Source: Suillus spraguei
Taxonomy: Eukaryota > Basidiomycota > Agaricomycetes > Boletales > Suillaceae
DNA length: 64,000 nt
Assembly: GCA_016800925.1 (NCBI GenBank)
Contig: JABCPU010000223.1
Span: 1 to 64,000 of the forward strand
Direction of reading: 5' to 3'
The first letter of the stretch is position 1, and the number at the start of each line of letters is the position of its first letter. This document shows positions 2,137-61,733 of this stretch, in pieces. The position numbers were made by a program, and so were the translations under genes. The notes below the pieces were generated by a model that saw only the letters and a list, made by a program, of their open reading frames with translations, ran no database searches and was not told where the DNA came from.

Positions 2137-2141
2137 GTTAT

Positions 2142-20967: not shown

Positions 20968-20968
20968 A

Positions 20969-20979: not shown

Positions 20980-21094
20980 CTATCTGATCGTCGACTATCC
21001 AGTCTTCGACCCTGAACCCTGATAAGCCCTAACGGACAGCAAGACAGCACGTGTAGGCACCGAGAAAGTATAACTCACCAGATGAATCGCCAAT

Positions 21095-21930: not shown

Positions 21931-21947
21931 ATTAGAGAAACAAGGAT

Positions 21948-26820: not shown

Positions 26821-26875
26821 ATTATTCTTTAGTCAATCAAACCGCACCAGCACTTGATCAACTAAACCCCTCTAA

Positions 26876-28345: not shown

Positions 28346-28363
28346 AGTCGGTGACTTTATGTG

Positions 28364-28377
28364 TAAAATGGGGGTAA
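28364..28377 (+). promoter_or_regulatory. polypurine tract, family C
   Basis: AAAATGGGGGTAA immediately precedes the 3' LTR; the equivalent in copy 1 is AAAAAGGGGGTAA. This is the expected position for plus-strand priming. Confidence 0.75.
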
Positions 28378-28850: not shown

Positions 28851-28910
28851 GCACCCAACGAACTTCCTGATGGTCATGTGCATAAAATGTTGACTCATTG
28901 TGAAACCATA

Positions 28911-33946: not shown

Positions 33947-34570
33947 ATGGCTTCAGATGCGTCACCCATATCAGTCTTATTCGCGCGTGGCATCCTAGCC
34001 CGCCTCGCGATATGGCCAGCTCTTCGCATTGCTGTGCACCAAAACTGGGGAGGACCCCAAAGCGCACAAAAACAACGCTGGTTAGCAGGTGTCATCATAG
34101 ATGAATTCGAAGCATCCCTTCCACCAGTATCTGCGGCTTTCGATTCTTATCAATCAGCCCCCATGCATCCATCACACACGCTCCCTGAGCCAGACATCGA
34201 ATACATAGAAACGATGCTGCTCCAGATCATGGATGACGAGTTTGAGATCGCGCTTGAAGATGGAAGCGCGTTCGACGTTGCTAGAGATGCTGTGCGTTTG
34301 TGGAACGATGCGAAGGAGGGCAAGGATGGATATGTCAAGGATTTAGAGACGCAAGCAGATCGAATGAAAGGAAAAATGCCGCAATATGAAGTTGATGCGG
34401 GGAGTGCAAGTGATTGGGAAGATAGCGACAGCGGTAACGAGGATGAGAGTGGAAGCGACAGCGAAGATTTCGGGAAGGAGGTCGTCCCACAGTTACTCAA
34501 CCATGCAAAAGAGGTATCAGATATTGACGAAGATGGCTTTACTACCGTAAAGAGGAGAGGAGGCAGATAA
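33947..34570 (+). CDS. TSR2: pre-rRNA-processing protein TSR2
   Basis: Single-exon gene of 207 codons. In yeast Tsr2 is the escort chaperone that delivers Rps26 to the pre-40S ribosome. The family region covers about residues 8-130: FARGILARLAIWPAL, HQNWGGPQS, then IEYIETMLLQIMDDEFEIALEDGS and a conserved helix with a WNDAKEG ending. The C-terminus is acidic (GNEDESGSDSEDF) and ends in a short basic tail, as in fungal homologues. The gene converges with SEC63, with only 42 bp between the two stop codons. No sign of damage. Confidence 0.88.
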   Translation: MASDASPISVLFARGILARLAIWPALRIAVHQNWGGPQSAQKQRWLAGVIIDEFEASLPPVSAAFDSYQSAPMHPSHTLPEPDIEYIETMLLQIMDDEFEIALEDGSAFDVARDAVRLWNDAKEGKDGYVKDLETQADRMKGKMPQYEVDAGSASDWEDSDSGNEDESGSDSEDFGKEVVPQLLNHAKEVSDIDEDGFTTVKRRGGR

Positions 34571-34612
34571 AATACCAAGGTGTATAATCTAATTAGACAA
34601 GATATGCAACAT

Positions 34613-37074
34613 CTAGTCGCTATCTGAACTATCATCACCATGCTCCTCCTCATCGCTCGAACTCTCGTCTTCGCTCTCCTCACGCACAGCTGTACGCTTC
34701 ACAGCTCCTCCGCGCATCGCAGCCATCTGGCCTGCCAACGAATCCTCCTCAGGATCAGAAATTTCATCCTCCGCTGTCTGCTCTTCTGCATTGAGTGCAG
34801 ATATGTCATCGATTTTGAGCTGAGGATCGCATTAGTTATCCCACATAGCAAAGCTTGACGGAAGCTCACCGAAATGTCCTGACACGACTCCTCCCCCACG
34901 AGCGTGTCACTTACTAGGTACACCTTCCACGTGAACAAGCCCACATTAGGGGGAGCCTGGAACTGTAACTTGTAGGAGCGGTAGTCACGTTCCTTCCCGG
35001 GGCTCGATGGGGGTACGTCTGAGATCTTCATTGGGGGAACAACAATTCTATTCGACTTGTCATCAGCAAGGACAAGCCACCAGCCTGGTTTGCGCAGCTG
35101 TGAATGTTCCAGTCAGACATGCAGACATGGCACCAAGAAGAAAGACAGACCCCTGGCCAGTAAGGTGCGTGAGCCCACGCAGGTGTGGCCCCCTCGATGT
35201 CCTCAGTATCCTTTCGACTGTTCAAGAATTTCTCATCTTTCTCCCTATCCTCCCGGATGGCCTTTGCCGATTTTTCAGAAACAGGTAAGAGTGCGTCACT
35301 TTGAAGTGGCCGGCGAAGACGCAGTTTTACAAGGAGGAATACAATGGATGACGGTGTGACCAAGCGTTCACCAATAACTGAAATAAAATGAGTACTAAGT
35401 TGATGATTACAATTGAGAACAAACCCTTAAAAGACATATCCACAATATCCAAGCGACTCCAGCCCTCGATAGCCTTTCGTGCTTCCGTTTTCCGAATGTC
35501 TCCCTCGTCCTCCAGGCGCGATATGAATGAGGCAAGGTCCTTCCCTTCTGATGCATCAGTATCGCCATCGAAGCCAGGTAATTGAGCTTGTGGTGCAACA
35601 GTTTTTCCAGGAAGAAGAGCTTGCGTGACGTAGGCGTGCAGACGCATCACCATCAAGGTGGGTGTCAGCCAACTCCGTGCAGCCGAGATCCCTAGCAGTG
35701 CGTTGAGCAGGATCGGGGCCTGCAACAACAATTTGGCCTGTTCTAGACGCGCAAGCCATCAGAAGTACCGTCTCTTCCTGAAAGTTAACTCACCCCGCTT
35801 AAGCGCCTCATCGTTGATGTTTAACCTCAGGAAGTGCGCGTACAGCAGTACTAAGGCCCGCTGCTCGGTCCTTTCACATTTTCTACCAGGAGCCACGAGA
35901 CGCTTTACCTCCTTCCATTGGTCGCCCATCTTTTCATCGATCTGTTTCTCAAGCTCCTCCAAGCCCACTGCGGTGCCTGCCCACGTAGTCTCCCAGCGGT
36001 ATGCCTGGCCCAGCGCACCTATGACCTCCTTCATGCCGCTGCTGTCCGTGAGTGCCTTGAAGAATACTGCAGCGGTCTTTGCATTAATCCCATCTTTTGT
36101 TTTTTGGCGGTTTCCAAACCACCAACGGCCCTATGCGCTGTAAGGACCGATCAAAGTAAGGTGATGGTGGGGTACATACCACAAGCGTGGGGAGTGCGCC
36201 GCCGAAGAGAATACCATATACACCGAGGACCCAGATGTTGTTTTTGCCTTCAATAACCCACTTTGGCAAAGCAATACCCATCGAGACTTCCTGTCGGCCA
36301 TCGGGATGCCCGAAAAGTTCCCAGTTGCGGCGAATGGTTTCGTCTGTTAACCTTGAAATAGTGTTAGTGGGATCACACCTGGCCACAAACTCGACATACG
36401 ACGTACGACTTGTACGCCTTGGTAATATCTACGAAACGATTGGCAATCTCCTCTATTGTCTCATTGATGGTTGGTTTGACTTTGTCGGGATGACTGAGAG
36501 TAGTGAGTTTGCATGTGCAAATACAAGGAATCAGACACGTACTATAATCGCGATAGTTCCTTGAAACGCGACTTGATCTCCTTTTCTGTTGCTCCCTGCA
36601 TGATATGAGCAATCAGATAGAGTGGATACATCGAGTTATACATACTGTGCTGATCTTAAGGATCTCGAATGGATTATAGACCTTGTTTTCAAGCTCTGCA
36701 TGCGCAGCTTTGAATGAGAGAAACGCGACAGCAGCCCAGCCCACGGTAATTAGTAGTGCCCTTTTAGAACGTGAGTGGCATTCAGAACCACATGGATGTC
36801 TCACTTTCTGGTAAACTTTACTCGAGCAGGGAGCTACGACCTTGTCTTCTCAGGTCAGCTCGACGCTGTATACAGGGCGTGCATTGGCACCCGCTATCAA
36901 GCTCTGGGCGTTCTGGACAAATTCTAGTCAAATCGGCAAGAACAGAGAAACAGGCTTACTGGAAGACACGCTTGTAACTGACGAAAGTGTAACAGGTAAC
37001 AGAATAATAACAAGGACAGAAATGATGAAGTAGGCGGCCATATTGCCTGCCTCATCATAGTGATAGTTCGCCAT
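34613..37074 (-). CDS. SEC63: Sec63, ER translocon J-domain protein (multi-exon)
   Basis: Sec63 recruits the ER-lumenal Hsp70 to the Sec61 channel for post-translational import. Start MANYHYDEAGNMAAYF at 37074; stop TAG 34613-34615. Seen in order: first membrane helix (AAYFIISVLVIILLPVTL), a Cys-containing loop (CQCTPC), second helix (ALLITVGWAAVAFLSF), a DnaJ segment starting NPFEILKIS with the HPD triad intact (HPDKVKPT, near 36490), ELFGHPDGRQE, third helix (NIWVLGVYGILFGGALPTLV), the Brl region (35731-35000), an immunoglobulin-like strand part (NVGLFTWKVYLVSDTLVG), and an acidic Ser/Glu/Asp C-terminus. At least eight short introns. The first exon-intron junction did not fit my phase reading, so exact exons are uncertain. 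Confidence 0.85.
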
Positions 37075-37915
37075 CGCTGTGGATTAGCGAGTAGCGATTA
37101 ATTGCCAGTCCGTGCAAAAAAAAACGATAGAAAGAATTTCAAAGAAACGAGTTTGGATGAAAGTCGACGTGGCTTGAGGAGAAGTAAATGCATAAAGTAA
37201 ATATACCCGTGGGTAAACTAGGCCCATCGGATCACCATCTATATGTCTCCTAGTCTCATCTAGCCAGTTACCGAATCTCAAAGTCCAATTCCTCAAAAAT
37301 AGACGAGCATATAAGTATGTGCAAGAAATCCTCGAATCCCGATCCACTTTATCACTCTTTCAAAGCCCCATAAAAAGGTCCCAAGTAACCGCATACTACG
37401 TTTTGTGTGATACCTGTGTCCTTTTCACGGATTCTGTGCAAGCAGCTGCGAACTTGAAGGCTTGGGGGAAGTCAGAAAGGGGGCGGGTGAGAGCAAGAAG
37501 ACGCAGATTAGACGAATGAACATGCCATGCACACTGCAAAATTCAAATGGTGGGATTTACTACCTACAGGTCGGTGATACTCCACAGATTATCGTCAGTG
37601 TAAAAAGTCGCCTGATTCAAGTGAACTTGAACCTTCAAGTACTGAGCATGCGGAAGCCATGGTCGACTGGAAAACGAGCTTCATCAGATACTGGGCCGCG
37701 GAGTCGACCTGGGCCATAGTCTGCCAGATCCCTAGACCCAAATTTTCCGCTTCACTTGATTTTTTTCTTGGTACGAACCTGCAGTACAATGCAAGCAAAA
37801 CTGTGAAAATATTTACCATAATAAATGACGTTGAAGGAATATTTTCAATACGCTTGCAGTACGCATGATTTTGTGGAGGTTTGTGCGTTTCGGCGTTTAA
37901 ACTGCTCCTGCCATC
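37075..37915. promoter_or_regulatory. divergent intergenic region SEC63 / coilin-like gene
   Basis: About 840 bp between two start codons facing away from each other, presumably carrying both promoters. I see no convincing TATA box or other named element. Confidence 0.4.
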
Positions 37916-39487
37916 ATGCGTCTCAAAATCTCGACAATTCATCCATTGGGCCCGCTCAAAGCGTGGTTTGCTCTAGACAATGATCCAGAAGCTCACACAA
38001 TCGTGCAACTCAAGCGCGCGCTATGCGCACAGCTGCCCATTGGTATGCAAGCTGACAACATTACTCTCATGATGGACGAGTATGATCTTCTGGACGAAAG
38101 TTCCATATCGATTTTACGCGATGGCGACGCTGTTTGGTGAGCATAAAAGTACGCCATTTACTTCAGTGAGCTCATGTCCTTGACAGCATTAAACGCGCAG
38201 TAGCAACATCCCGACCTAATTTGTCAAGTAACAGGGTACCCTTGCCTGCAACTCAGAAGCGTAAACGCCGTGCATCTACGTCCTCGGAATCTTCGTCCAG
38301 CTCATCCTCAAGTTCTAGCTCATCTGAATCATCAGACAACTCATCCAGCTCATCCGATTCCTCAGACTCGGACTCTGATTCAGACATGGATGCCCCCAAA
38401 CCCGCACATCAGCCCTCAGAAAAGCGCGTTGACGCAACTACAAAATCAAAAACTCTGCAAGACAAGTACGAGAACCATTCAACTGTTTTCGTATCTCACG
38501 CAGATCCACTAGCATCTCGTTTGTCCCCCCCGGTTACGGTAAGCCCTCCACTCGTAATCGCAATCTCCGCAGACGGCAAAAACGTATGGCGGAGCATAAT
38601 CAACTTCCTGATGAACCTTTAGCACCCACATCCGGTGCTAATGCCGTCCTACCCCTCCCCATTCAGCAAAACTCGTTAACCTGCACCTCCTCTGAAGCCT
38701 ATGTTGCTAATATAGAGCCGAGTCTGAGCCAAATGTGATGATGGTGTCCCTGCGAAACAAAAATAAGAAAAAGAACTTCCGCCAGCTCATGGATAAGCCC
38801 CTCCCTCCAAAGATCGTGTTTGCGGAGCTTGAAAATGCCTCCGTACGAGCTGAACCTCCGGATAAGCTTGCACCTGCTGGAACTTCAAGTTCAGAAAAGG
38901 TCGCAATGCCTCCCGTCAAGCATGCAAGGCTGATTCCTCCTTCGGAACGGAATAACTTGCCGTCGAATATATTCGTGACGAGTGTGGATGTAGAGGAAGG
39001 TAAATGGCCGAAGAAGAAACAGACATCGAAAAAAGAGCTTGGCACAGCTTCCTACAACGATGAATCGTGCACCGCCAATTTCAGTCTCGATTACGGCTCG
39101 GCTGAAGTGCCGACGGCAAACCCAGACGAGGCACTTTACCTTTGTGTGGAACAGCAGTGGGACTTGCTTCCAAAAATAACTAGCACGTCACAAGTGCCAG
39201 TAGTCAACATCGTTGCATACAAGGTGGGGTTATTTAATTAGTGAAAATGAACAGGAATACTCATCGGGGCGCAGGCTCTTGCCATCAACCCTATGACGTG
39301 GACGCCCGAAATGTTAATAAAAGTTGCCCGCGTGATATCTCTATCTTCCACACATGTCACTATCTCTCCTTTACAGCGGCCTGTTCAAGTTTCATTCGGT
39401 GGACTACCGGATATAACAGAAGCTGACGAGGATGAGATATACACTTTGGCAGATATTCTGTCCCAGGACTGGCGTGTCGTGCGATGA
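37916..39487 (+). CDS. coilin-like nuclear body protein (contains an apparent frameshift)
   Basis: Exon 1 (37916-38136) encodes an N-terminal ubiquitin-like domain as in coilin (MRLKISTIHPLGPLKAWFAL...). Introns 38137-38186, 38675-38715 (41 nt, ends CTAATATAG) and 39224-39274 join in phase. A long Ser/Asp tract (residues about 95-135) and a basic cluster (RNRNLRRRQKR) follow. The C-terminal part has an atypical-Tudor-like region (NPMTWTPEMLIKVARVI). Between the Ser tract and the basic cluster the frame is lost at a run of seven C (38525-38531); one more C would give a continuous frame through GKPSTRNRN. Coilin organises Cajal bodies and snRNP maturation; the assignment is by domain order and not certain. 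Confidence 0.65.
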
Positions 39488-40122
39488 CTCATGAGGCCAA
39501 AAAGCATGGGTGAAATCTAGTTGCCTGTTGTCTGTACATACCAGTCCTAAGTACTATGTACTATCATTCCGGGTATTCTGCAACATTTTCAGCAAATCTT
39601 TTGTAACTCGTCAACCACTTCATATTATCTTCCATGAATTTAGAGTGTTATAGATTCGTACTGCCTCCGCATAGACCTGATTTTTGCTCATTTTTAGGAC
39701 GCTGTAAATTTTTATTCCACTTGGACAGTACATCATATATAAGTAGTCTACATATGCCTGAATTTTTTTGAAGTGAGTGGAGCAGTGCGTTGAGGTGTTT
39801 TGAACTTTTTGCATATGGTTGCAGATTACCCGGAATGATAGTAGTAGTGACATGTCAGCTGCTGTGCGTCACTGCTGCGATAGATACGGTAAATTGTGAT
39901 GTCACTTACGTTTGATGCTCGGCATCACGGAGTCATGGCGAATTGCGGGCCTGCGGGGTGTATCCAACCCGAGATTACCCGAGTAACAGTTTTTACTTTT
40001 ATTGGATCGTCGCGAATTCATTTTAGATCCACGTTTCCCAGCCCAAGTCCTTTACCTTGTCGCTCTCGACGACCACCAAGCCTAAATCGTGCGACATTTA
40101 GCACGAGCTCGCAATTGCGACC
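39488..40122. other. intergenic region upstream of the PPR gene
   Basis: No gene supported. The last 150 bp before ATG 40123 are C/T-rich (CTCTCGACGACCACC, CCCAGCCC), typical of fungal promoters. Confidence 0.4.
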
Positions 40123-43100
40123 ATGCTTCCCAAGGTCGCTAATCACATCTTTCTGCACACTTCTCGTGCAGTAGCCGCCGTCCAGAACCAGACAGGTCAT
40201 ACCCTCCGTAACGTACTCCAACTCCAGTCATCTGCACCAAGCGCACCGACAACATGGACTGGCGCTGGTAGCTCAAGCTGGGGCAGCAGTGGCGCTGGGC
40301 CAGGCGGTGCAAAGTTCAACGCAGGTAGTCGGTTCTATAACGGGTATACGGTCAGTTTGCAGTGCACCTTTAATATCTGATATGTTCCTGATATTTTACA
40401 GGGAGCCGGGCGTGCTGTGACACAGGCAAATGCATCTACCTCACATGATGGCAACGCTGAACAGAGCGATGAGCGCGACGAAATCGTTCCAAAGCGCGTC
40501 GAGCCCCGCTCTTCTAAGCGTATCATCACTCGTCGGCACAGTTTTTCTCTTGGTACACTTAATGAGCAAGAACATGGAAAAACAGAGTCATTAGGTGTCT
40601 TGCACATTGTACAGTTACACGTTCGCTCAAAACACACATTCGCTGCACCTGGCGAAGCGCTCGACCAGTCTCCTTCTGATTCTTCGCGGCCTCCCCTCAC
40701 ACGGCGTAACTCTACAGCTTCACTGAGTGCATCCGGTTCCATTGATGATTTATCCCCACCCCCAGTCCCTTCAATATCTGTCAAGTCCATATCCACTGAT
40801 CCCGCAGTCCCACAGTCCGTCACAGACCCAGCCGCAGACGATGAGAGTGACAAAGTTTCCGAAATGTATCAGTCTCTTCATCGGGCAGCGCACTCTGGTG
40901 ATATTGCTAGAGTCATGCAAGAGGTCCGCATCCTCCGTACAACTCACAAGAACCCCATAGTGTCAGAGTTCAACATGGCTTTATATGGCCTCCAAGAAAC
41001 TCGTCGCCGCGGTGCACCGATCACACTCTTGCTCGAGACATACAATGACATGATCCAACGCTCCCTCAAGCCAAATGTTCGCACCTACATGTGTCTTATT
41101 CTCGCTCTTACCGAGCGCGACAACGAGGTCCACAGGTCTATTGGAAGTCTTGATGGCCGCATTAAGCGTCGCAGGCTTGTTGGTCGCCAGGAGGTCGCCG
41201 TGGATGAAGCAGATGAGAGGCGCATCAAAAAGCTCAAGGCAGAGAACAACTTCGCCACTGCTATGTCTATGTTTGACGCAGCGTTGAACACTAGCGCGCG
41301 CAACAAGTTCCCTCTCGTGGTTTACACCAATCTTCTTCGCTCATGTGCATTACACGCCGATGTGGATGCTGCCATTCACGTATTTGCGCAGCTGGAATCG
41401 CGCACCGACTTCCTCCCCAGCCCTCAAGTCTTCTTGAATTTACTCACCGCATTCGCCAATGCAAATGACCTGCAGGGCGCCAAGGAGGTCTTCCAGGAGT
41501 TTAGGGAAGCTAGCAAAGAAGGCCGCATCAGGGGGCGTGATTTTTCCGCCGCTCCTGAAGCAGCCGTAGCCAGCTTGATCACTCGGGGACAACTTCTTGT
41601 CTGGAACAAAATGATCGAAGCTTACTTCCGCGGCGGCCAGCCCGCAGGCGCTCTCCGTCTCCTGGAGACCATGATGGACAGCAACGCCAACCCTGATAAA
41701 CTCTCACCAGAAGTTCCTTTGCCCTCCTCGTCCACGTTTTCGTCCATCATTGCTGGTTTCTGCTACTCGGGAGACGTTACAAGTGCTCTATCCTGGTTTG
41801 ACCGCTTGCTACAGCAGGGTGAAGCAGCCCGTCATCCACATGAATCTTCCCTTGTTCCCCCTCGCCCTGACCAGCTTGCATGGGCTGTGATGCTTGACTT
41901 CCTCGCCCAGGAGGGTATGATCGCAGATCTCAACCGGCTCTACGACATTTTTGTTGACTGTGCCCCTCGCGACGGCCTTGAAGTGCGCCGTCTAGACCAT
42001 ACCCTTGTTCTCGAAGCCAATATCAACTATCTTCAATCTGGAACTATCAGCAAATCCGGAGCTAAGAAGAATACGCCGACTTTTAAGGATGTGCTCAGGC
42101 TTATCCGACTAGCGGACAATGTAGATGTCTCTGTGAGCAAAGAGTTGGCAGCCCTTTACCTACACACCTACATGTCGACTTGCAGTCGCGGTGACATGGC
42201 GCAATACGGTGTTAGCCTCCGTGACTACGAAGCACTCTTGTCCAGTGCCCTTACCATTCTTCCAGAAGAGACCGATATAGGGCATATCATCACAGTCAAA
42301 AACTGTGCATACAAGGGCCTTATTCCCCTTCTCATCGCGCTTTCAAAACAAAACCTTCAGTTATCGCAGTTAAAAGCAAACCTCATTTCCAATCTTTCGA
42401 ATGTGCTATATGCTGGCTACTCAAAGGAACAGCGGGATGAATTGTTTGGAAAGGTGTCACCCAACTTCCGTATCGCACTCGAGAAGCGCAGCGAGTCGCC
42501 TCTCACGTCGCCTAACCCTGCGATACAGATGTATCCTCCCATCAAGGACATCGTTGTCGATGGTACGCTTAGCCGCTACGTCGATGATTGGTTCCCATCG
42601 CACCCCACCGTGACAATCCATGAAGCCTATAGCCGCCTTCAAAACGGAGTTGCCACCAGCAAGTACGTTCACCCCTCTACCATCGGGCGGCTTATCAATG
42701 GCTTCGGACGTGTCGGTGATCTCAACAAGGTGCAGAGCCTGTATGATATCGCGCAAATTGTATTATCCTCGATCGATAACAAGCAGTGGCAGTCTCAGGC
42801 GTGGTTCCAAATTGAAGACCAGATGATCATCGCATGCGCGCATGCCGGAGACATGGAAACTGCATTTCAGTACCGAGATCGCATTACGTCCAACGGCGGA
42901 ATTCCTTCCGCTGACGCATATGGCTCGCTCATAGAGTGCGTCAAGGACACCACAGATGACACTTCGAACGCCATGGCTCTGTTCAGTGAGGCGCAGACAT
43001 TTGGATGCACACCAAACGTCTACTTATACAACACGATCATCTCCAAGCTGGCCAAGGCGCGCAAGGCGGACTTCGCACTCGAGCTGTTCCAGCAGATGAA

Positions 43101-44154
43101 GGCTACCCCTGGTGTCCGTCCATCCTCAATTACATACGGCGCCGTCATTGCTGCTTGCGCACGCGTCGGCGATGCTCAGTCAGCCGAGCAATTGTTCTTG
43201 GAGATGTCTTCGCAGTCCAACTTCAAGCCTCGCATCCCACCTTACAATATGATGATGCAACTGTACGCGCACACAAAGCCTGATCGTGAGAGGGTGCTCC
43301 ATTATTACGACCAACTTCTTCGCGCTGGTGTCGAGCCTTCTGCCCACACGTACAAGGTATGTGATTTAATTGTTTTATCTGCTCATCTTTAATGTACGCT
43401 CAGTTGCTCATCGATGCATATGGAACTATTGAGCCTGTTGACGTCGACGCTATGGAAGGCGTATTCAAGCTTCTCCGAAACAACAGGTCGGTGGTGCTCC
43501 AAGGCAGCCACTGGGCCGCCCTGATCAATGCATATGGTTGTGTGCAGAAGGATTTGGAGAAGGCGATCAGTACATTCGACTCTATCCCGGCGCCTGATGC
43601 TGTCACGTATGAATCCCTTATCAACGTCCTTGTCACCAACAAGCAGATGGCTCTTGCACCCGGTTACATGGAGAAGCTGAAGTCGTCTGGAGTACATATG
43701 ACGGCTTACATCGCGAACCTATTGATAAAGGGCTATGCTGCTGCTGGAGACATTGAGGAAGCCCGAAGAATATTTGAGAACTTGGTGGATCCCCCTAGCG
43801 GCGTTGCAGCCTCAGGTAACCATGTTCCTCATGAAGGCTCCCATCAGCGTACGTCCCCATCACCATCAGCGTCGTACCGCGAGGTGAGTTATTACAGCAA
43901 ATACATATGGATGAGAATTCACTCTGCTTTTCAGCCATCTACGTGGGAAGCTATGTTCCGCGCGGAGCTAGGTAATGGTTATCGCGACAGAGCGGTCGCA
44001 CTGCTAGCACGGCTACAGGAAAGGTATATCCGTATTTCCTGGATCGTGTAGTTAAAACTGACTTTTGTCAAGACAATTCCCTGCCGCAGTATATAATCGG
44101 ATACGAGGTATCATGATCGATGATTCTGCCTCACCATGGACAGCATCTCCTTGA
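40123..44154 (+). CDS. large pentatricopeptide-repeat (PPR) protein, probably mitochondrial
   Basis: Exons 40123-40350, 40402-43356, 43404-43883, 43935-44023 and 44073-44154, with introns of 47-51 nt, all GT-AG and in phase, giving about 1277 residues. The N-terminus is rich in Arg, Ser and Ala without acids (MLPKVANHIFLHTSRAVAAV), as in mitochondrial presequences. PPR-like helix pairs recur: NPIVSEFNMALYGLQETRR, PNVRTYMCLILAL, KFPLVVYTNLLRSCALHAD, LLVWNKMIEAYFRGGQ, PNVYLYNTIISKLAKARK, PSSITYGAVIAACARVGD, AYIANLLIKGYAAAGD. PPR proteins bind organellar RNA and affect its processing or translation. An acidic Ser/Pro-rich region (residues about 90-170) precedes the repeats. Reading frame intact. 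The specific RNA target is unknown. Confidence 0.85.
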
Positions 44155-44651
44155 TCACTTTCTGAAGATGTTTTCGCTGCTTGATTATAACATGGATCGG
44201 TAACACTGGCTAACCAGCAGAAGGCGCAATATTTTTCTAGACGCCATGATTGGAATTCTAAAAGTATCTGCTCACTAATCATTTATTCATTGCGACACTA
44301 CCATCATGCATGACACTTGTGTACACTATTGTTTATATAAATCTGTATCATACCCCCAAGACGACTGATGAATTCTTTTCGAATTTTCCCGAACGCGACG
44401 GTTGATGAACAGGCTGGAGATTTCTCAGGCCGTGTTGGATGAGAAGTTCATACCCGAGACCTCCACAAGTCCGTTCGTACCCTGGACACATAGTGACACA
44501 GCATTATTGATATACACGCGAAGCATGTTGAGGTCCTAATGCCAGTAGCGAAATGGAACTACATAGGTGCAGAAAAAGGAGTGGCGAGCTACTCCGAGGA
44601 CAAAGTAGCAACTGTCACAGTACAGATGATATGTCTACCTCCAACATACCG
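44155..44651. other. intergenic region between convergent genes
   Basis: Nearly 500 bp between the PPR stop and the HET/TPR stop on the other strand. I see no gene; the region is likely 3' untranslated sequence of both. Confidence 0.45.
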
Positions 44652-47146
44652 CTACAATATCTCAAGTGTCCTGACCATGTCCGGAATAGAAGAAAGGTCT
44701 TTGACACGTGCAATAATATGACGATCTGACGCTATTCTCTTGTATCCTCCACCCCGCTGCTGCGCTAGTAAAAATGCACCAATTGAAGGCTGCTCAAGAC
44801 GAGCAGCTAAGCGCAATGCTCGATCGATCAATTCCAAGTCAACCGACTCTTGTGCTTCTGGGAACCTGTCAGGCGAATCCTTTAATGGAGACCCGGGAAG
44901 AGACCAATAATCTTCCTCGCTCTGCGTGTCATCAGCAACGTCAGGCAGCTCTGCCAAGCCAGACAGCTCCGGAAAGTCAGGAAGCTCGAGGAGATAACGA
45001 TTCCACGGACGAACAAGAAAAAATGTCTGCATAGTGGGTCGTGGCGATGAGAACTATATCAGCGTGTCCTTCGTGGTGATCAGCAAGTCATGAAGCCCGT
45101 CGGCCTTGACTCCATATATCTCCTGGTCTTCAGCGCGACTCCATTTGACTGCTGTGACACGAAATGTGATGCAAGGCAGGTGCAACCTGCAGTTCGCGAA
45201 ACGAGGCGCGTTCACATTGTCAAACAGGTCGTAAAGTCTCAGAAAAAATCTACGGCCATGACATGTCGGAGTGAGGAGATTGATGTCTGAATGTCTTCTT
45301 CGGACAGAGATGGCATGGTGTATGGCGGAGTTTTGTATGAAGTAATATCGGCCGGCAGACAGCTATTGAATTCAGAAGATTGCCCACCCAGTCCAAAGCA
45401 CTGATGTCACCCGACCGAGCTATCACCTCCTGCAAGAGCCTCCCAAGAGCGCTTTGCTTCTTCTCGCCATGAATGACGGGTAGTTTGACGCCGAAGATAC
45501 CAAACAATGAGTATGCAACATCTTCCTGCCACGTGGTGACCCGTGCCGACACCCATTGGAATTTTTTCCGGGCGTGTCTCATTCCAGTCGGAAGGCGACG
45601 AGGGCCTGTGCATCTATGCCCGTGGCATCTCCCATCTCCTTCATGATTGCAAGGGAATCCTTGTGGTTGGGAGAGCGATCACCGAGATATAGGGACCAAT
45701 CCTTCTGATAAAATAGGACAAATTTGGGGGCGAGGAATTCTTGAACTGTCCATCCTCGCGTGTTCCAAGCACTACTTGCGAGTGCGCCAGGCTGCGACGC
45801 AGGTGAAACATCCGACAGGTAGACGATGGTAAGCGCTGAGTGGCGATACCAAATAAACATGGAGTTGACCGATTGTTGGACTTCGACATTATTAGTCTGG
45901 TCGATGCAACAGGTATCAACCCATGCCCAGCGATACCCTTTATTACGAGCAGTCTCACAGAATGACTTCAACTTCGCGATGCCGCCAACTGGATCCAAGT
46001 CGTATACACCCTGCCCTGGATATCATGCAGCAACGGCTCCGTCCCTTCCCACCTATGGGATAACATGACATAACGGAAGTACATCGCCACCGCGTCTCGA
46101 ATGTGCTCCATTTGAAGGTCTGCACGTTTCATTATGCATGACAGAAGTTTTTTATACTCTGCGCTCATTCCGAAGGCAGTGATCTGTGCCTCGCGGTTGC
46201 ATAAGCGCCCAGTGGAAATGTCGATTAGACGATGGGGAGTGTCGTCCAGTTGAGCCCTGATGCTCTCCTCAATAGCACCTTTCGCTTCGGATGGAGTAGC
46301 ATACTGTTCGCGCAAGTCTGGATAAAGAGTTAACAATATCGAGGGTGAGCTGTTTGAAGCGTACTTCGTGTTTGCGTGTCAGGAGTATTTTCCAACTTGG
46401 AGAGCATCATTTTATAGGCTTCGAAGGCTTCATCATACCGGCGTGCGTCATGAAGTACCGCATGCTTCAACTGATAACCTATGTAAGATGAGGGGTTGAA
46501 GTCGATGGCCTGCGTATCACTAAAATGAATGTTGGATAAGAAACGGTAGCTGTCATCGCACCATTTCTGCGTCAAGGAGTGCAATATCGAGGTCTATCGC
46601 CGCAGAGTAAAGCTCGATAGCCCTGTCGTAATTACCCGCAGCGAGGGCAGCATCTCCGCTCGCAACAAGGTCAGTCACTCCGGCAGCGGCATAGAGCATG
46701 CTGCAATCTTGCTTGAAAGCTAAGTGAGATAAGGCTGTAAATTATACCCGGCTGACATCACAAAGACTTACCTGTGGACCAACCAAGAGAGAGTGCCTTT
46801 GTGGCCTCATCGGCCGCATCCATCATATATTAGTATGCTTTCATGGCTTCTGGAAGTCTACCTGCCCAAATGAGCGCATCACACCAATTCTGGTGTGCAG
46901 TTCTCCACAATGACATGAGATCCCACCTGAATAACTATAAAAAATACAGTGGGATGCAAAAAAATAATTCTGGTTGCATTATAATGAACCTACCAGTACG
47001 AAGACATCATATTTAGCATGGATGGCTGACATTGACGAGAAACAAATAGTGTTGACAGCAGAAGTGAAGTGATTAGCAGCTTCGTTGTGATGCATTCCAT
47101 CCACACAGTCTAAAGCACTCAAGCCTAATTGGATGTGTAGATAAGC
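44652..47146 (-). pseudogene. HET-domain / TPR gene, 3' part
   Basis: HET domains occur in fungal self/non-self recognition proteins that trigger cell death. On the minus strand from 47146: TPR helices (AYLHIQLGLSALDCVDG, NEAANHFTSAVNTI), then MMDAADEATKAL and SSYIGYQLKHAVLHDARRYDEA, then the HET domain (about 46070-45580: RYVMLSHRWEG, GYRWAWVDTCCIDQ, SALTIVYLSDV, WNTRGWTVQEFLAP), then GDISALDWVG, and a C-terminal part ending GAFLLAQQRGGGYKRIAS to the stop at 44652. An in-frame TAA at 46830-46832, a lost base after VAFRLE near 45580, and another shift near 45370 show decay. The 5' part lies 16 kb away at 63129-64000, because a retrotransposon sits in the intron whose acceptor is at 47147-47149. 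Confidence 0.8.
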
Positions 47147-53789: not shown

Positions 53790-54559
53790 TGTTAAGACTG
53801 TACTCAAGGGTAGAGAGATCCGAAGGCCTTTTGGCCTCAGTTCGTACACTGTGCCCCTTTCTCGAGTAATGCCCCTTATTTCAGGGAGGAGTTATTCGTC
53901 CGAAGACCCGGAAGGGGTTGTGTGACGGATCCGGGTGTCCGAAGGTGTCGGATATGATACGTCCGAAGGTAATTCGGAACGTAAGGAGAGGACAGAGATT
54001 AAGGCTAGTTTCGGAATGAGTTCCTAACTAGAAATTAACGGAGATGGACTATCCGAAGATAGAGTCGGAGGTATAGACTATAGGAATCAATCCTAAGTCT
54101 CGGAAGGTGACTTAAAGCGGAGAGTGGCTTAAGTCCGGAGGAGGCAGAATGAGTAGAATCTAAGATGATATTCGAACTGAGGTTCTACGGAGATCTACAA
54201 GTGGTTTATATACTGTAAGTATCTAAGACGGATAATCAGCAAGTCCGGGACCGAGGGCTATGTACGAAGTGTAGCGGAAGTCTATTAGTTAATGCACAGC
54301 GGATCAGTAAGCAAGAATCGGAAATGAACACAGGAAACGGATCAGTAACACAGGACGGAAATATAAACAGCCAGAGTACCGGTAGCAGGAGAAATGACGA
54401 AAGGAGATAGACGCAGATGTACACAAGGGAGTTAAGGTGCGAGAAGTGAGTACATTCGGATGGGTGGTCCGGACAAGATCTGTGGACTGGACGGATATGG
54501 AAACGATCGGATCTGGACGGATATGGTCGGATCTGAGAATAGAAGTATGGTATATGACA
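53790..54559 (-). mobile_element. 3' LTR of family A copy 2
   Basis: 770 bp, TGTTAAGACTGTACTC to ATGGTATATGACA on the + strand. The G-rich polypurine tract of the element (54564-54572, seen as CCCCCC on the + strand) is directly adjacent. Confidence 0.95.
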
Positions 54560-54682
54560 GTATCCCCCCTTAGGGCCGAACCCCTGAGGCACAAGAAGCG
54601 TTGATCCGGATCGGACAGATTAATGCGAGACGATGGGGAAGTTTGATGGTTGTAGTGCTGAGTCTGTAATCCGACAGATATA

Positions 54683-54699
54683 CGGACGTCAGACGTCCG
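54683..54699. promoter_or_regulatory. CGG-N11-CCG palindrome upstream of the antisense gene (copy 2)
   Basis: CGGACGTCAGACGTCCG: a perfect 7-bp inverted repeat around CAG, conserved with 3896-3912. It is 53 bp upstream of ATG 54752 and 124 bp from the 3' LTR. The spacing of CGG and CCG (11 bases) matches the Gal4-type site. Binding by the adjacent gene's product is inference. Confidence 0.55.
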
Positions 54700-54751
54700 A
54701 AATGATTCCTACCCCCACTTCATATCCTTGTTAACAAAACTTGTCTCCTAC

Positions 54752-55766
54752 ATGTCTGGAAAGAGATCCGATGCCCCTAAGACTGCTGCTGACCTTGTGG
54801 CGGATCTGGAGCAGCAACTGGCGGCTGCTAAGGCTGCAGCAGAAGCCGAGGTGGAGCGGAAGCGGAAAGAGGCGGAGGAGCGGAAAAGGCAGGAGGAGTT
54901 GAAGCAGATTGAGTTGGCGGAGATCCGGAGGGAAATGGAGGAGAAGAGGCGGAGAGCACTGATTGAGGCTCGGGTGAGTGCTGTGGACTCTTCCGGATCC
55001 GGATATTAATGGGTTGGCAAAGGCCAAGGCTGCTCCTGCGTCTGGAGCAAAGGATGGGTACTGCTCCCGTTGCGTCACTAAGGGCTGGATGTGCCAGTGG
55101 GGTGATGCTGAGAAGAATGCCATGGTGAGTCGTCCGAAAAACTTCGGATCCGCTGATTTCGACGTTTCATAGATTAAGTCCTGTGACGTCTGCCGGAAGG
55201 ACAAGGCCACTTGTCCTGGAAGGCCCAGATTCGTTAAGGGGCCCAAGGGCCGGAAGAGGCAGCGTCCTGCTGGTACTCCGTCTCCGAAGGGCAAAGGCAA
55301 GCGCCGTCAGAGGAGTCCTACTCCGGATGTGGCGGATGCGGATGTCTTCTCTAATCCAGTCACTATCGAAGGTACGGATGAGGATTTTGTGGAGTATGAT
55401 GATCAGGCTTGGGTGGCCGCTGCCAATGGAATCATTGCTGAGTTGGCGCGGACCAACGGACTTCTCCAAGATGGTATTGTGGCGGCGGAAGGGAGTCGGA
55501 TTGCCATGGAGCAGATGAGCTCTACCATGGAGGCCTTCCTCCAGCAACAGAGGGAATTCCAGGCCCTGCTCATCGAGGAAATTTGGACCGGATTTAGGCT
55601 TTCCGTTTCTGCCGGATCCGACAAGGATGGCGCTGGTGAGGAGATTGGGGAAGAGGTGGCGGATGAGAATGGAGGAGAGATGGCGGATGGGACTGGGGAA
55701 GAGATGGCGGATGGGACTGGGGAGGAGACTGGGGGTGCCGGAGGTGAAATGGAGACTGGTGCTTAG
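54752..55766 (+). CDS. antisense Zn2Cys6 coiled-coil protein of family A retrotransposon (copy 2)
   Basis: Three exons, 54752-54973, 55023-55124 and 55173-55766; introns 54974-55022 (49 nt) and 55125-55172 (48 nt) both start GTGAGT, end AG and have branch-like TTAAT / CTGAT. All phase 0; product 305 residues. Residues 9-74 form a coiled coil. Residues about 84-121 hold CSRCVTKGWMC and SCDVCRKDKATC, the two halves of a Zn2Cys6 cluster brought together by splicing. Residues 122-150 are basic. Residues 155-245 are helical, and the rest is a Gly/Glu repeat (GEEMADGT). Nearly all differences from copy 1 are single residues outside the cysteines. Unspliced, exon 1 runs into a stop after 12 more codons. 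Introns can persist here only because the element's RNA is made from the other strand. Confidence 0.82.
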
Positions 55767-55823
55767 TCCAGATCCGGATTTCCGCTACTGCCCTCAATGT
55801 ACTTGTATTTCGTTATGTACTCT

Positions 55824-58800
55824 TCAAGCAATGGGACCAGGCTTGTCCGGATATGCTGAGTGGAAATCCGCTACGAGATCCGATGCATTTCCGAGTTCTG
55901 TGGCCAGTAACCAGGAAGTTTCTTTGTCCGTTCCTTCGTATCCGGACCAACGGACGAGGTATAGAAGTTGGCAGTGGTGCCTACGACGGTCCAGTTTAGA
56001 GTCCAGGATTTCGGATATCTCGTACTCTGGTTCTCCGTCGACTTCGACTGGTGGTGGAGGAGGTTGGATGCGATTGGGAATGGTGTTCAGAACTGCTGGC
56101 TCTAACTGCGAGACATGGAAAACAGGATGTACGGAACGCATAGAATCCGGAAGTCAGATGGCGAAAGAATGAGTACCCGGGCGGGATATAATTTCGAATG
56201 GTCCCAAATTCTTTTCTGAAAGTTTCTTCGACGGACGAGTGGAGCGGAAGTACTTGGCTTTGACGAAGACTTGTTCCCCAATCCAGAAGTCTGGAGCAGG
56301 CTGTCTTTTAGCGTCTGCGGGTCCTTGATAGCGTTTCTGAGCTTCGGACATCTCATCTCGGAGGAACTGGTGAAGTTTGTTAAGGTCTAGGGCATATTCC
56401 TGGGCACGGATGGAGGATAGGTCGTGTTCCAGATGGATGGAAATGTTCGGATGATAACCTTTATTGGCGAAGAAAGGTGAAACTCCGGTAGTGGCACTCG
56501 GAGCGTTATTGTATGCAAATTCTGCGAGGGGCAGCAGCTCGGACCAGTTGTCCTGCTGATAGTTGCAGTAGATCTGGAGGTACTGTTCCAGCGTTTGGTT
56601 GGCACGTTCAGTTTGTCCGTCCCCTTCGGGATGATATCCGGATGTGAAGTGTAGGACCATGTCCAATGCCTTTCCTAGGGAATGGAAGAAGTGGGATACG
56701 AACTCTGTTCCTCGATCCGAGGTTACATGGGACGGGACTCCATGCTTAGAGAAGACATGGAGGAGAAATAGGCGGGCGAGATCAGGGGAAGTAATGGTAT
56801 CGTGGGTCGGAACGAATATGGCTTGCTTGGATAAACGATCTATGATGACGAGGATGGCTGTAAAGCCGGATGAGTCCGGAAGTTGTTCAATGAAATCCAT
56901 AGAGATGGAATTCCATGGTTTTTCTGGGACAGGAAGTTGCTTGAGTAGACCGTAGGGCTTATGCTTATGTCTCGGAACTTTGGCTCGGGCGCAGGATGTG
57001 CAGGATCTGACATACTCTTTGACAAAGGCTTGTACTCTGGGCCAGGTATAGTTGCGTCGGATGAGCTCGAGAGTACGATTCTGTCCGAAATGTCCGGATA
57101 GGGGGTGGTCATGGCAATTCCGGAGGATGTGAAGTCGTAGATCATTGGTATCCAGAACGTAGATGCGGTTGTCACAACAAAGGAATCCACCATCGTCTAT
57201 TGTCCATCTCGGATCCGAAGGAACCAGAAAATGTATTTGTGCAACGGGGTCATTAGGGAGTGCTATCAGAATGTCTTTCCAGAGGTGTTCGGTGTCCATA
57301 AGAACAGCTGCTCTAAGGACCGGAGTTGCTAAAATGGAAGCTCGTAGGGACGAAGCTAATTGTTCCGAAGCAAATATTGGACGGAGGTTGTGAGGGTTAA
57401 TCTGAGCGTAGTCCTTATCCCCCTCTTTAGGGTAGACGTCCCATCGTCTAGTGAGGGAATCTGGCTTGACTCCGAGTCTTCCAGGACGGTAACGGATAAC
57501 GAGGTTGAACTGATGGAGGAACTCGGACCAGCGGGCCTGACGATGGGATAGCAGTTTGGTGGTAGAGAAATACTCAAGGTTCTTGTGGTCCGTGACAACA
57601 TCTATAGGCTCGGACGAGCCTTCTAGGTAATGGCGCCAGGTTCGGAACGCAGCATAGATGGCTAGTAGTTCCTTATCATGGACATCATAGTTGAGTTCTG
57701 CACCGGACAGTGTCCGGGAGTAAAATGCCACCGGACGAAGTTCCGAGTCTGGGCACACAATGGATAGTATTCCAGCGATAGCATAATCCGAGGCATCAGT
57801 TTCCACAACTATAGGAACATTCGGAATCCAATGCGTTAGCACTGGAGTGGACGTGAAAGCTTTCTTGAGTGCATTAAATGATTTCTGGCATTCCTCGGAA
57901 AAGTCCCAAGTGACGCCCTTGCGAGTGAGTCGAGTAAGGGGAACCACGATATCCGAGTAGTTGAAGATGAAACGACGATAGAAGTTAGCGAATCCGAGGA
58001 AAGATTGGATGTCCTTGACTTTCTGAGGTTCTGGCCAGTCTATGATAGACTGGATCTTTTCGGACAACATTGTCAAGCCATCCGGAGATAGGAGGTAACC
58101 AAGATATTCGACGGAGGATGAATGAAATTCGCATTTCTCGGGTTTGGCATATAGTCGGTGTTTACGGAGACGTCGCAAAACTTCTCGGACATGTTCCTTA
58201 TGACTTGCAAGGTCTTGGGAATAGATAAGGATGTCATCCAGATATACAACAACACATACGTCCAGCATATCGGCAAATACACTATTGACAAAGTGCTGGA
58301 AAGCTGCCGGAGCATTCGTGAGGCCTTCCGGCATCACCAACCATTCATAGGAGCCATAGCGCGTACGGAAGGAAGTCTTCCACTCGTCTCCTTCTGTTAT
58401 CCGGACGAGGTGATATGCAGATCGGAGATCAATTTTGGTATAAACTTTAGCGCGGCTCGGGGAGTCTAGTAGGTCGGCAATGAGGGGTAACGGATATCGG
58501 TCCTTCTTGGTGATGTGGTTAAGGCCGCGGAAATCCACACAAAGGCGGAGGGATCCATCCTTCTTTTTGACAAATAGGACGGGGGCTCCGTGGGGAGAAG
58601 ATGAGGAGCGGAGGAGTCCACACGAGATGTTTTCATCAAGGAACTTCCGGAGGGCCTCAAGCTCTACCGGAGAAAGAGAGTATATGGTTCCGAGAGGCGG
58701 ACTAGCCCCTTCTTCCAACTCAATCTTGAGATCGTAGGGTCGATGTGGGGGAAGTTGTCCGGCTTTGCCTTTGTCGAAGACATCCGCGAATTCGTGGTAA

Positions 58801-59620
58801 TCGGAAGGGATTCTGGAGAGGTCTGGAGGATTGGATGATACGGATGCGGATCGAAGGTTTACTTCGGAGGGACGGAGGTAGATGCTGAACTGAGTAGATC
58901 CTTCTAACTTGCAGGCACGGCAAAAGGCCACTGCGTTTATCAACGATATGTTAGGGACTGGAGTACCAGCGGAGGGTTCGGATTTGATCAGAGGCGGAGT
59001 CTCTGCCACGGATGGGGTGCTCTGAGGCGACGGAGATATTGGAGGGGAGGAATCTTCCTTGGGTGGAATACCCGAAGGAAACAGAGGTGTCGGATTGGAT
59101 TTTCCTGCCATGGACGATGTGTCTGGAGGCAGCGGTGATGCGGATGGGGTTAATGGCTCTCCCTGTTCAGTAGTTCGGAACTCGATGCTGCCCAATACCC
59201 AGTCAATCAACAGATTGTGTCGGGTGAGCCAGCTATATCCGAGAACGATATAACATGAGGAATCCAAAGGGGTGATGTAGAACGTGTCGGAAGTGATTAC
59301 ACCGGAGGAGAATCGGACGGATAAGTTTATGGCCTCGACAATATTGTTATTGCATGTACCATCAAATAAACGGAGTGGAAGCGGAGGAATCTGATAGGTA
59401 GGAATTTTATGTTCTCGGACGAAATCAGTGTCTATGAAGCAGTGGGAGGAACCACAGTCTATGAGGGCCGGAAAGTCAGATATATTGGAGAAAGATGGAA
59501 GAGAGACATATGGACACAGAGAGTTCGGATCAGGAAGAGTTACAGCGTTGAGTTGTAGTTCCGTTGCACGGGTTGGGCCAACGCGACCCTCATCCCATAC
59601 GGAGTCAGGAGGGTCGCGGA
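55824..59620 (-). CDS. family A copy 2 pol (-1 frame of gag), one nonsense codon
   Basis: Open from the frameshift site down to TGA 56154-56156; the remaining chromodomain part is 56153-55824. Protease: ALIDCGSSHCFIDTDF (about 59465) and IVLGYSWLTRHNLLIDW. RT: FVKKKDGSLRLCVDFRGLN and YLDDILIYSQD near 58230. RNase H: ETDASDYAIAGIL, VTDHKNLEYF. Integrase: GHFGQNRTLELIRRNYTW, CTSCARAKVPRHKHKPYG, SMDFIEQLPDSSG, VTSDRGTEF, SGYHPEGDGQTERANQTLEQ. Chromodomain: EYEISEILDSKL. All catalytic motifs look intact. The stop falls between integrase and chromodomain, where copy 1 has CGA, so it is a CpG transition. The truncated enzyme may keep polymerase and integrase functions. Confidence 0.92.
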
Positions 59621-60913
59621 CTAATTTTTTGCCTCATCTGAGGCTTCCAGTTCCATTTCCGGAGTGAGTATAGTAGCGCGGCCTTTGGCAGCGCGCGAAG
59701 TGGATTTGGTGCATTCCTGGGCAGTGTGACCAGGTCCACCGCAGAACATACAGAGCCTTTTGTCAATACGTCTCTGACGCTCCTGGGTGGTTAGCTTTCC
59801 GTCTGCACCAACAACGCTAGGGAGATCCGAAACTTTCGGGGTAGAGGATGTTGTGGAGGATGTGGGTTTATTGAATTTGGGCGTATCGGATCCGGATGAG
59901 TTGGAGTTCGTCCGGTTGGATGTTGACTGCCTGGGAGGATTGGAAGAGGTGGTTCTACTCTCTCGGGTGACTTCGCCCCTCCATTCCCAGTAACGGGCGT
60001 CGATGGTCTGGGCGAGAGTCTTGAACTCCGAAAGGGTAGTGGGCTTACCCATGCGACTAATCTCATCTTTGATTCGGGCTGGAAGTCCATTGTAGAATTG
60101 GCGTCGTAGGGCTCCGTCTCCCCATTCGCGTACTTGGGAGGCAAGTCGCTGGAATTCTACAACGTACTTGTTGATGCATTGTCCGTCACGCATGTGGAGT
60201 TGTTCTAACTGCATCTCTGCGTCTCCGGAAGGATCGTGTGGTCCGAAATTGGTTTGGAGCTCGAGCATGAACTCGGAGTAGTCATCCATCCAGTCCGGAC
60301 GGTTGCTATATCCGTCCGAAAGGAGGTCCGGTTCAAACCACTCGAGAGCCATACCCTTAAGGTAGGATTGGGCGAAATTTACTTTAGCGCGTCCGGAACG
60401 GAAAGCGCTAGGTTTGCTCTGGAAGTTGAGCTCACATTGGACGAAGAATGCCCGGAGCTTGCGAGGTTCGGACCCATCGAAGGTATCTGGCTCACGGACT
60501 TTGACTTTGCTATCATCCGAGGTGGGGGTGCAACGGCTACTGCAAGTGAGGTGGTTAATGGCTACAGATAGTTGGGCTAGGACCCGGTCCTGAGGGCTCA
60601 GGTGGATTTTATCTTCTTCGTCATCCAGGTCCTCGTTGTCCGGATCATCAACTTCATCATCTGGTAGGTTACTGCGCAGCTCATCATCAAAGCGAATGGT
60701 CGGGCGCAAATTGGAGTCTGGGTTATCCGGGTTCCGAGTTGGTGTTATCGGATCCGGTCTGACTTGACGGGCGGAGATACTTTGACCTATGTTGCTCATG
60801 CTTGCGCGGCGTTGAGAGAAACTGGTGAATGTTTGGACGATGGGTGTGGGATCTCGTTGGATCGGACCAAGTCCGGCTCCTCGGAGTGTGTTCTGAGTTT
60901 TACGGGGAGGCAT
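59621..60913 (-). CDS. family A copy 2 gag
   Basis: 430 codons, ATG at 60911-60913, stop TAG at 59621-59623. The N-terminus is basic and Pro/Ser-rich (MPPRKTQNTLRGAG). An acidic spacer follows (DDEVDDPDNEDLDDEEDK), then the capsid region (about residues 150-290: FFVQCELNFQSKPSAF, FAQSYLKGMALEWFEPDLL, INKYVVEFQRLASQVREWG), then a Ser/Thr-rich linker and the knuckle CMFCGGPGHTAQEC (CX2CX4HX4C, near residue 395). Forms the particle shell and packages RNA. No damage seen. Confidence 0.92.
   Translation of the reverse strand: MPPRKTQNTLRGAGLGPIQRDPTPIVQTFTSFSQRRASMSNIGQSISARQVRPDPITPTRNPDNPDSNLRPTIRFDDELRSNLPDDEVDDPDNEDLDDEEDKIHLSPQDRVLAQLSVAINHLTCSSRCTPTSDDSKVKVREPDTFDGSEPRKLRAFFVQCELNFQSKPSAFRSGRAKVNFAQSYLKGMALEWFEPDLLSDGYSNRPDWMDDYSEFMLELQTNFGPHDPSGDAEMQLEQLHMRDGQCINKYVVEFQRLASQVREWGDGALRRQFYNGLPARIKDEISRMGKPTTLSEFKTLAQTIDARYWEWRGEVTRESRTTSSNPPRQSTSNRTNSNSSGSDTPKFNKPTSSTTSSTPKVSDLPSVVGADGKLTTQERQRRIDKRLCMFCGGPGHTAQECTKSTSRAAKGRATILTPEMELEASDEAKN
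59624..59630 (-). promoter_or_regulatory. -1 frameshift slippery site A-AAA-AAT at gag stop
   Basis: On the minus strand the last gag codons are GCA AAA AAT TAG, giving the heptamer A AAA AAT in the X XXY YYZ phase. Slipping back one base gives AAA AAA TTA GTC, which is the open pol frame. The heptamer directly precedes the gag stop. Function is inferred from position. Confidence 0.65.
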
Positions 60914-60950
60914 GATATGGGATGGTTGCTAAGTTACTCGGAAAGGTTTG

Positions 60951-60961
60951 AGTTCGAATAT
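60951..60961 (-). promoter_or_regulatory. self-priming primer-binding site, family A
   Basis: On the minus strand ATATTCGAACT lies two bases after the 5' LTR and is the reverse complement of AGTTCGAATAT in the LTR (61342-61352 on the + strand coordinates), about 35 bp downstream of the TATA box TATATAAACC. It fits the 11-nt self-primer of Tf1-type elements. Confidence 0.65.
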
Positions 60962-60963
60962 AC

Positions 60964-61733
60964 TGTTAAGACTGTACTCAAGGGTAGAGAGATCCAAAGG
61001 GCTTTTGGCCTCAGTTCGTACACTGTGCCCCTTTCTCGAGTAATGCCCCTTATTTCAGGGAGGAGTTATTCGTCCGAAGACCCGGAAGGGGTTGCGTGAC
61101 GGATCCGGGTGTCCGAAGGTGTCGGATATGATACGTCCGAAGGTAATTCGGAACGTAAGGAGAGGACAGAGATTAAGGCTAGTTTCGGAATGAGTTCCTA
61201 ACTAGAAATTAACGGAGATGGACTATCCGAAGATAGAGCCGGAGGTATAGACTATAGGAATCAATCCTAAGTCTCGGAAGGTGACTTAAAGCGGAGAGTG
61301 GCTTAAGTCCGGAGGAGGCAGAATGAGTAGAATCTAAGATGATATTCGAACTGAGGTTCTACGGAGATCTACAAGTGGTTTATATACTGTAAGTATCTAA
61401 GACGGATAATCAGCAAGTCCGGGACCGAGGGCTATGTACGAAGTGTAGCGGAAGTCTATTAGTTAATGCACAGCGGATCAGTAAGCAAGAATCGGAAATG
61501 AACACAGGAAACGGATCAGTAACACAGGACGGAAATATAAACAGCCAGAGTACCGGTAGCAGGAGAAATGACGAAAGGAGATAGACGCAGATGTACACAA
61601 GGGAGTTAAGGTGCGAGAAGTGAGTACATTCGGATGGGTGGTCCGGACAAGATCTGTGGACCGGACGGATATGGAAACGATCGGATCTGGATGGATATGG
61701 TCGGATCTGAGAATAGAAGTATGGTATATGACA
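60964..61733 (-). mobile_element. 5' LTR of family A copy 2
   Basis: 770 bp; differs from the 3' LTR by six substitutions, five of them C/T or G/A changes at CpG. Carries the TATA box and the conserved block GGGGCACAGTGTACGAACTG near its 3' end. Confidence 0.95.

Follow-up and report, generated by a model that had tools for sequence, protein, structure and literature searches.

The window analysed here (64,000 nt of contig JABCPU010000223.1 of Suillus spraguei) contains two copies of a retrotransposon that we call family A. The copy at 53790–61733, with gag-pol on the minus strand, is a young Ty3/gypsy element of the chromodomain type. It has the make-up of a chromovirus: gag, a pol with protease, reverse transcriptase (RT), RNase H and integrase in that order followed by a chromodomain, LTRs, a polypurine tract and a 5-bp duplication (GTTTG) on both sides. 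Its LTRs show 6 mismatches over 772 aligned bp. At 60930–60963, beside the 5′ LTR, no obvious standard tRNA primer-binding site was seen. Unlike in this copy, the integrase–chromodomain region is open in the other copy of the window.

A gene of three exons (222, 102 and 594 nt) lies on the plus strand, opposite gag-pol, between the chromodomain end of pol and the 3′ LTR; its spliced frame is open and encodes 305 amino acids. The features of the locus, and those of the other copy that are used below, are as follows.

53790–54559, minus strand: 3′ LTR of the family A element (in the sense of gag-pol), with the GTTTG duplication at its flank
54560–54571, minus strand: polypurine tract adjoining the 3′ LTR
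54572–54751, plus strand: CGGA-rich leader from the polypurine tract to the ATG of the antisense gene
54752–54973, plus strand: exon 1, N-terminal long helix, from sequence, with a helix in the model of the relative P0015
54974–55022, plus strand: intron 1, 49 nt, GTGAGT...AAG, missing in family B where readable
55023–55124, plus strand: exon 2, first half-cluster CX2CX6C at 55062–55094
55125–55172, plus strand: intron 2, 48 nt, GTGAGT...TAG, containing CTGAT; in family B at the same place, 49 nt
55173–55766, plus strand: exon 3, second half-cluster at 55182–55214, basic stretch, conserved C-terminal helix, acidic tail and stop
55824–56153, minus strand: chromodomain end of pol, divided from the integrase by an in-frame stop in the 53790–61733 copy
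56154–59633, minus strand: pol (protease, RT, RNase H, integrase)
59621–60928, minus strand: gag with zinc knuckle
60964–61733, minus strand: 5′ LTR of the family A element
2828–3842, minus strand: antisense gene of the other family A copy (exons 3621–3842, 3470–3571 and 2828–3421)
580–2136, plus strand: solo LTR of the related element E inside copy 1, with GTTAT on both sides and tandem GGAGCGGA-type octamers at 1400–1980, from sequence

The initial annotation had described this gene from the letters of the window, and its structural claims were borne out. Exon and intron lengths are identical in the two copies, which are mirrored on opposite strands (54752–55766, plus; 2828–3842, minus) and each face gag-pol; both introns begin with GTGAGT. 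Splicing would join two half-clusters, so placing six cysteines at residues 88, 91, 98, 112, 115 and 122 (CX2CX6CX13CX2CX6C), the paired CX2CX6C halves and connecting loop of a Zn2Cys6 protein. The basic stretch after the cluster and the acidic tail are present in the 305-residue sequence, and the proposed N-terminal coiled coil corresponds to a long N-terminal helix in the sequence, with a helix also in the predicted model of P0015.

Conservation and selection among genome copies

A search of the genome (86.2 Mb, 1,256 contigs) with the antisense gene listed 196 matches, from which 60 places were taken, 40 of them mostly high-ranking matches and 20 chosen further down. After one (L060) was dropped, the remaining 59 were aligned with the two window copies. 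A conserved frame opposite gag-pol, between pol and the 3′ LTR, is found in most copies of family A, and the spliced frame runs uninterrupted from ATG to stop in 38 of the 61. GT–AG ends are kept at intron 1 in 59 copies and at intron 2 in 60, with intron lengths of 47–49 nt. None of the 61 had lost an intron, which fits the earlier suggestion that the introns persist because the genomic RNA is transcribed from the other strand. Diversity at codon positions 1, 2 and 3 was 0.037, 0.036 and 0.096; in the middles of the two introns it was 0.095 and 0.116, and at the donor hexamers 0.012 and 0.017. All six cysteine codons encode cysteine in 58 of 58 copies, the partial copies L047, L053 and L068 being left out.

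Pooled Nei–Gojobori ratios were 0.17–0.31 per distance class, from pairs that are not independent of each other. A codon model of 36 distinct intact copies gave an omega of 0.345 (lnL −4361.2), against lnL −4556.9 with omega set to 1 and kappa fixed at 14.45. The initial annotation had named a ratio near 1 with loss of cysteines as the outcome that would count against its gene, and the opposite was found. In exon 3, pooled pN/pS was 0.23 in the proposed frame and 1.31 and 1.21 in the other two frames of the same strand. The gag-pol strand has open frames of 205 and 318 amino acids over the same stretch, as though the coding frame might lie there and the antisense strand hold no gene, a reading to which we give practically no credence: the stop-free frame of that strand has a pN/pS of 1.23 against 0.23 for the proposed one, and the mirror frame, at 0.31, shares third positions with it and contains two stops. 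Such a shadow frame, or a chance origin, was rejected on splice-site and cysteine conservation, omega and the frame-wise pN/pS. Only the proposed frame combines purifying selection with openness. The claim of an antisense, intron-containing, protein-coding gene thus stands, and selection has maintained its spliced frame as protein-coding over many transpositions.

It has also to be considered that regulation comes from the antisense transcript, through double-stranded RNA or promoter interference, and that the protein is incidental; part of the text of PMC7264820 treats this as a possible mode of action for the antisense transcripts of other LTR elements. We regard this as highly improbable for family A since selection at the amino-acid level (omega 0.345) together with full cysteine conservation requires a function of the protein.

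As a separate observation, the copies of the antisense gene (L009–L068) show a very strong transition bias (kappa 14.45), which suggests CpG deamination of element copies.

Relatives and family B

Three protein searches, two of which scored the best 7,996 and 7,997 candidates by shared words and the third all 327, yielded at least 46 homologues of the antisense protein. The species-labelled ones come from Suillus luteus, S. brevipes, S. decipiens, S. bovinus, S. tomentosus, S. occidentalis, S. cothurnatus and S. spraguei, and among the species-labelled proteins matched from these candidates none lay beyond Suillus. The same cluster is thus present in proteins of other Suillus species. A complete cluster, with a loop of 13–14 residues, is present in 11 of the 46; the other 35 are without part or all of it, and most of these are fragments. 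Relatives vary at the place of intron 2: the gene model P0019 runs across it, an ENA fragment of the same group (P0014) has additional residues there, as with a retained intron, and P0002, from a contig collection, crosses it intronless. Of 42 pattern matches in viral contigs, none was a relative.

A second family of the same genome, B (L085 and L086), is 79% identical to A in RT and 75% in integrase, and has an antisense gene in the same position and orientation. Its protein is about 50% identical to that of A over residues 109–258. Intron 2 is kept at the same place (49 nt, GTGAGT...CAG), and intron 1 is absent where the sequence is readable. Decay is evident in both copies: in L085 exon 1 carries a stop and the cluster is damaged, and L086 is truncated on its 5′ side, with all six cysteines present and a loop of 15.

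The order of the half-clusters

Zn_clus (PF00172) was the recurring Pfam match, hit by 7 of 13 members at E ≤1 (best 3.2e-4); in the genome, 18 Zn_clus matches were listed as potential host donor genes. The protein of A scores 14 bits against this profile, whose Pfam cut-off is 21 bits, and of ten relatives scanned only P0019 (21.2 bits) and P0023 (21.3 bits) exceeded it, the remainder falling below 21 or being unmatched. In A it is the first half-cluster that aligns, to the second half of the profile; in the relatives, the second half-cluster aligns to its first half. When the clusters of four proteins were cut out and scored in natural order they gave 18.5, 26.3, 20.6 and 20.2 bits, each in two stretches, and with the halves swapped 24.3, 26.8, 24.6 and 23.7 bits, each in a single stretch. 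Swapping raised the score in all four cases, in one of them marginally. The half-clusters look permuted, in reverse order relative to Zn_clus. The initial annotation had called the architecture typical of fungal Zn2Cys6 regulators, and here it has to be corrected: the architecture is atypical, because the cluster in natural order scores below the Pfam cut-off and its halves match Zn_clus in reverse.

A search of solved structures gave a single match, to a coiled coil (E 0.45). In the AlphaFold2 model of P0015 the long helices are confident; each half-cluster has short helices, and block confidence there is about 47–63 (mean of the model 68.8, pTM 0.34).

The related element E

The solo LTR of element E inside copy 1 has the same terminus as copy 1. 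A pattern for the junction of polypurine tract and LTR of E matched 20 places in the genome, two of which were examined. With tblastn at E 1e-3, two internal stretches of E gave no match to gag-pol pieces of A or to seven zinc proteins; blastn of E against A found short common pieces only (a 60-bp remnant of pol and LTR-edge pieces) and one A-like LTR in L088. As judged from these internal stretches, which do not include the 5′ part, element E is probably non-autonomous. Outside the pieces shared with A, and excluding the A-like LTR, CGGA sites number 69 over 3,414 bp of one stretch and 75 over 2,398 bp of the other.

Beside element E, L088 1–2000 contains open frames of a cysteine-rich protein that may be similar to a KDZ-type transposase. 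In the E-type LTR, the octamer array (1400–1980) has one CGGA per ~8 bp. An older copy of such an array, at 18500–18740, consists of CTCTTCTG-type units, as expected after CpG loss.

Excess of CGGA/TCCG in family A

Compared with synonymous codon shuffles, CGGA/TCCG sites are in excess in pol of A (94 against 53.5 ± 4.9), in gag (37 against 22.5 ± 3.3) and in the zinc gene (31 against 13.9 ± 2.7), whereas four control pieces from chromoviruses C and D had 7, 1, 3 and 8 sites against 7.7, 3.4, 3.6 and 8.6 in the shuffles. In the tetramer ranking of pol, CGGA/TCCG came first (z 8.2), ahead of ATCC (4.0). Under dinucleotide shuffles CGGA was likewise first among tetramers in the LTR, leader, gene, pol and gag of A, in two A-like solo LTRs, in the E LTR and in two internal stretches of E (all within z 3.5–15.4; the stretch L088:2100–6370 includes the 772-bp A-like LTR in this ranking). 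The same procedure placed it at rank 97 in C 24131–28851, at 104 in D, at 104 in 29000–47000 and, in C 20495–24130, inside which an A-like LTR is nested, at rank 2. Family A has 28–42 sites per kb, compared with 5.3 in the stretch 29000–47000. At the DNA level, CGGA saturates the element to a degree that its proteins and codon usage do not demand.

Family B gives a mixed picture. CGGA ranks first in the LTR of L086, and in L085 only in the part 1835–3330; its ranks in the L085 LTR and leader, gene, 4320–6197 and gag are 28, 20, 21 and 57. Integrase, RT and gag pieces of B have 14, 5 and 2 sites against 10.1, 6.0 and 1.4 expected from synonymous shuffles. TGGA, the product of CpG loss, stands in B at 15 of 56 sites found in A only.

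The gene could be real and the CGGA saturation nevertheless a mutational or epigenetic footprint, or a site for a host factor, with the protein targeting just the LTR, or else host genes. Half of the CpGs of A (50%) and 66–69% of those of E lie within CGGA/TCCG, compared with 9–13% in C, D and the background, and CpG outside the motif is depleted (observed/expected 0.47 in A, 0.20–0.23 in E), as it would be under CpG loss that spares CGGA. However, chromovirus D is CpG-depleted without such sparing (9% of its CpGs in the motif), and among copies the CpGs of CGGA are lost as often as others: conservation is 0.753 within the motif and 0.763 outside (39 and 23 sites, P = 0.76). This equality speaks against mutation that passes over the motif; equally, there is no sign of ongoing protection of CGGA. 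We consider a footprint or host-factor site unlikely, although it is the alternative to which we give most weight.

The protein might instead serve a different step (integration targeting, packaging or reverse transcription), CGGA then being a site of nucleic-acid handling and not of regulation. Retroelements do use small zinc-binding proteins to handle nucleic acids, and the presence of CGGA all along the transcribed element, in coding parts too, would suit such a role. Against this, CGGA occurs on both strands, mostly as base composition predicts (TCCG lies somewhat above in A pol and in E), so that there is no one-strand RNA signal, and gag already has a zinc knuckle and pol a chromodomain. 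A handling role therefore seems improbable to us. No spacing between sites is preferred, apart from distance 2, where 24 pairs overlap as TCCGGA, and to a small extent distance 4, with 7 pairs of the CGGATCCG type.

Comparison with known systems and proposed function

That LTR retrotransposons can carry antisense genes is established; what appears to be new is an antisense zinc-cluster gene with introns in a fungal element. HBZ of HTLV-1 is a spliced factor of the bZIP class, and in this differs from the zinc-cluster protein of A. Like the latter, HBZ is an antisense accessory protein of a retroelement, nuclear according to the part of PMC11963269 that treats it, and the antisense start of HTLV lies in the 3′ LTR (PMC7264820, in part). 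The plant elements Grande, RIRE2 and Retand (TRP28) have an antisense ORF at the same place and in the same orientation as A, and passages of PMC7264820 and PMC11963269 describe such additional ORFs as of unknown function, with DNA binding as a possibility. Family A differs from them in its zinc cluster in place of TRP28, its fungal host, its two introns and its saturation with its own motif. Another antisense extra gene of a fungal gypsy element is brtn of Botrytis Boty-like elements (PMC8365987, excerpt). No antisense zinc-cluster gene of a fungal retrotransposon appeared in the titles and abstract openings searched, in a collection with few subscription papers, nor is one described in the available sections of PMC10799480 and PMC2864245; a figure legend of PMC2864245 mentions additional ORFs of unknown function.

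Fungal Zn2Cys6 factors (Gal4-type, Pho7) share with the protein of A the paired CX2CX6C halves, a basic stretch, helices and, as proposed for A, CGG-type sites, and differ in the order of the halves relative to Zn_clus and in the setting of the gene, which in A is antisense in a retrotransposon. The classic half-site of this class is CGG. Its members typically recognise CGG triplets, in most cases as homodimers that have a coiled coil, and Pho7 reads single TCGGA-type sites (PMC5559640, in the portion available). A zinc cluster, a basic stretch and long helices, encoded in elements filled with CGGA, would most simply mean that the protein binds its own element, and the accumulation of CGGA over the element lends indirect support to the predicted DNA binding. 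We therefore lean, with rather better than even confidence, towards a self-recognising DNA-binding accessory protein that would act as activator or anti-silencer. The protein would dimerise by way of its helices and bind CGG-core sites across the copies of A, and binding would either activate LTR transcription or protect the copies from silencing. Since only A-group elements are dense in CGGA, its effect would be specific to them, and element E, for which no gene was found, may use the protein of A in trans. As read from sequence, protein and motif are linked by correlation across a small number of families, and a VANC-like anti-silencer fits no better than a plain LTR activator.

The closest parallel to self-recognition is VANC21 of VANDAL21 in Arabidopsis, an element-encoded protein whose short motif is abundant within VANDAL21 but rare in other transposable elements, and whose targets evolve as tandem repeats (partial texts of PMC5735166 and PMC10398659). 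Family A likewise has a short motif that is dense within it and rare elsewhere, the copies of B being mixed in this respect, and the octamer array of E resembles the tandem-repeat targets. However, VANDAL21 is a DNA transposon and A a retrotransposon; the VANC motif is mainly non-coding, whereas CGGA of A lies in coding parts too; and for VANC21 binding and demethylation have been demonstrated, whereas A is known from sequence. By this analogy, A may hold an independently evolved counterpart of VANC/VANDAL, in which a permuted zinc-cluster protein would coat CGG-core-rich copies and counter their silencing, or drive their transcription, with the site spread through the whole of A, coding parts included, and a dependent element E amplifying it as LTR octamers. 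We hold this fuller scheme to be possible but somewhat short of probable. Against self-recognition in general count the patchy excess in B, whose copies are decayed, the lack of a fixed spacing and the CpGs that are no better kept within the motif than outside. If self-recognition is true, A would be the second transposable element, independent of the first, to have remodelled its sequence for recognition by a protein that it encodes, here in a retrotransposon and with coding sequence included. As a recognisable DNA-binding design and a matching type of site occur in the same element, the function is directly testable by binding.

An additional open frame in chromovirus C

Chromovirus C (20495–28851) has an additional ORF of 489 amino acids on its sense strand (26876–28345, plus), located between the chromodomain and the 3′ LTR. 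It contains two zinc-knuckle-like motifs, and a damaged relative lies at about 6404–7824 on the plus strand.
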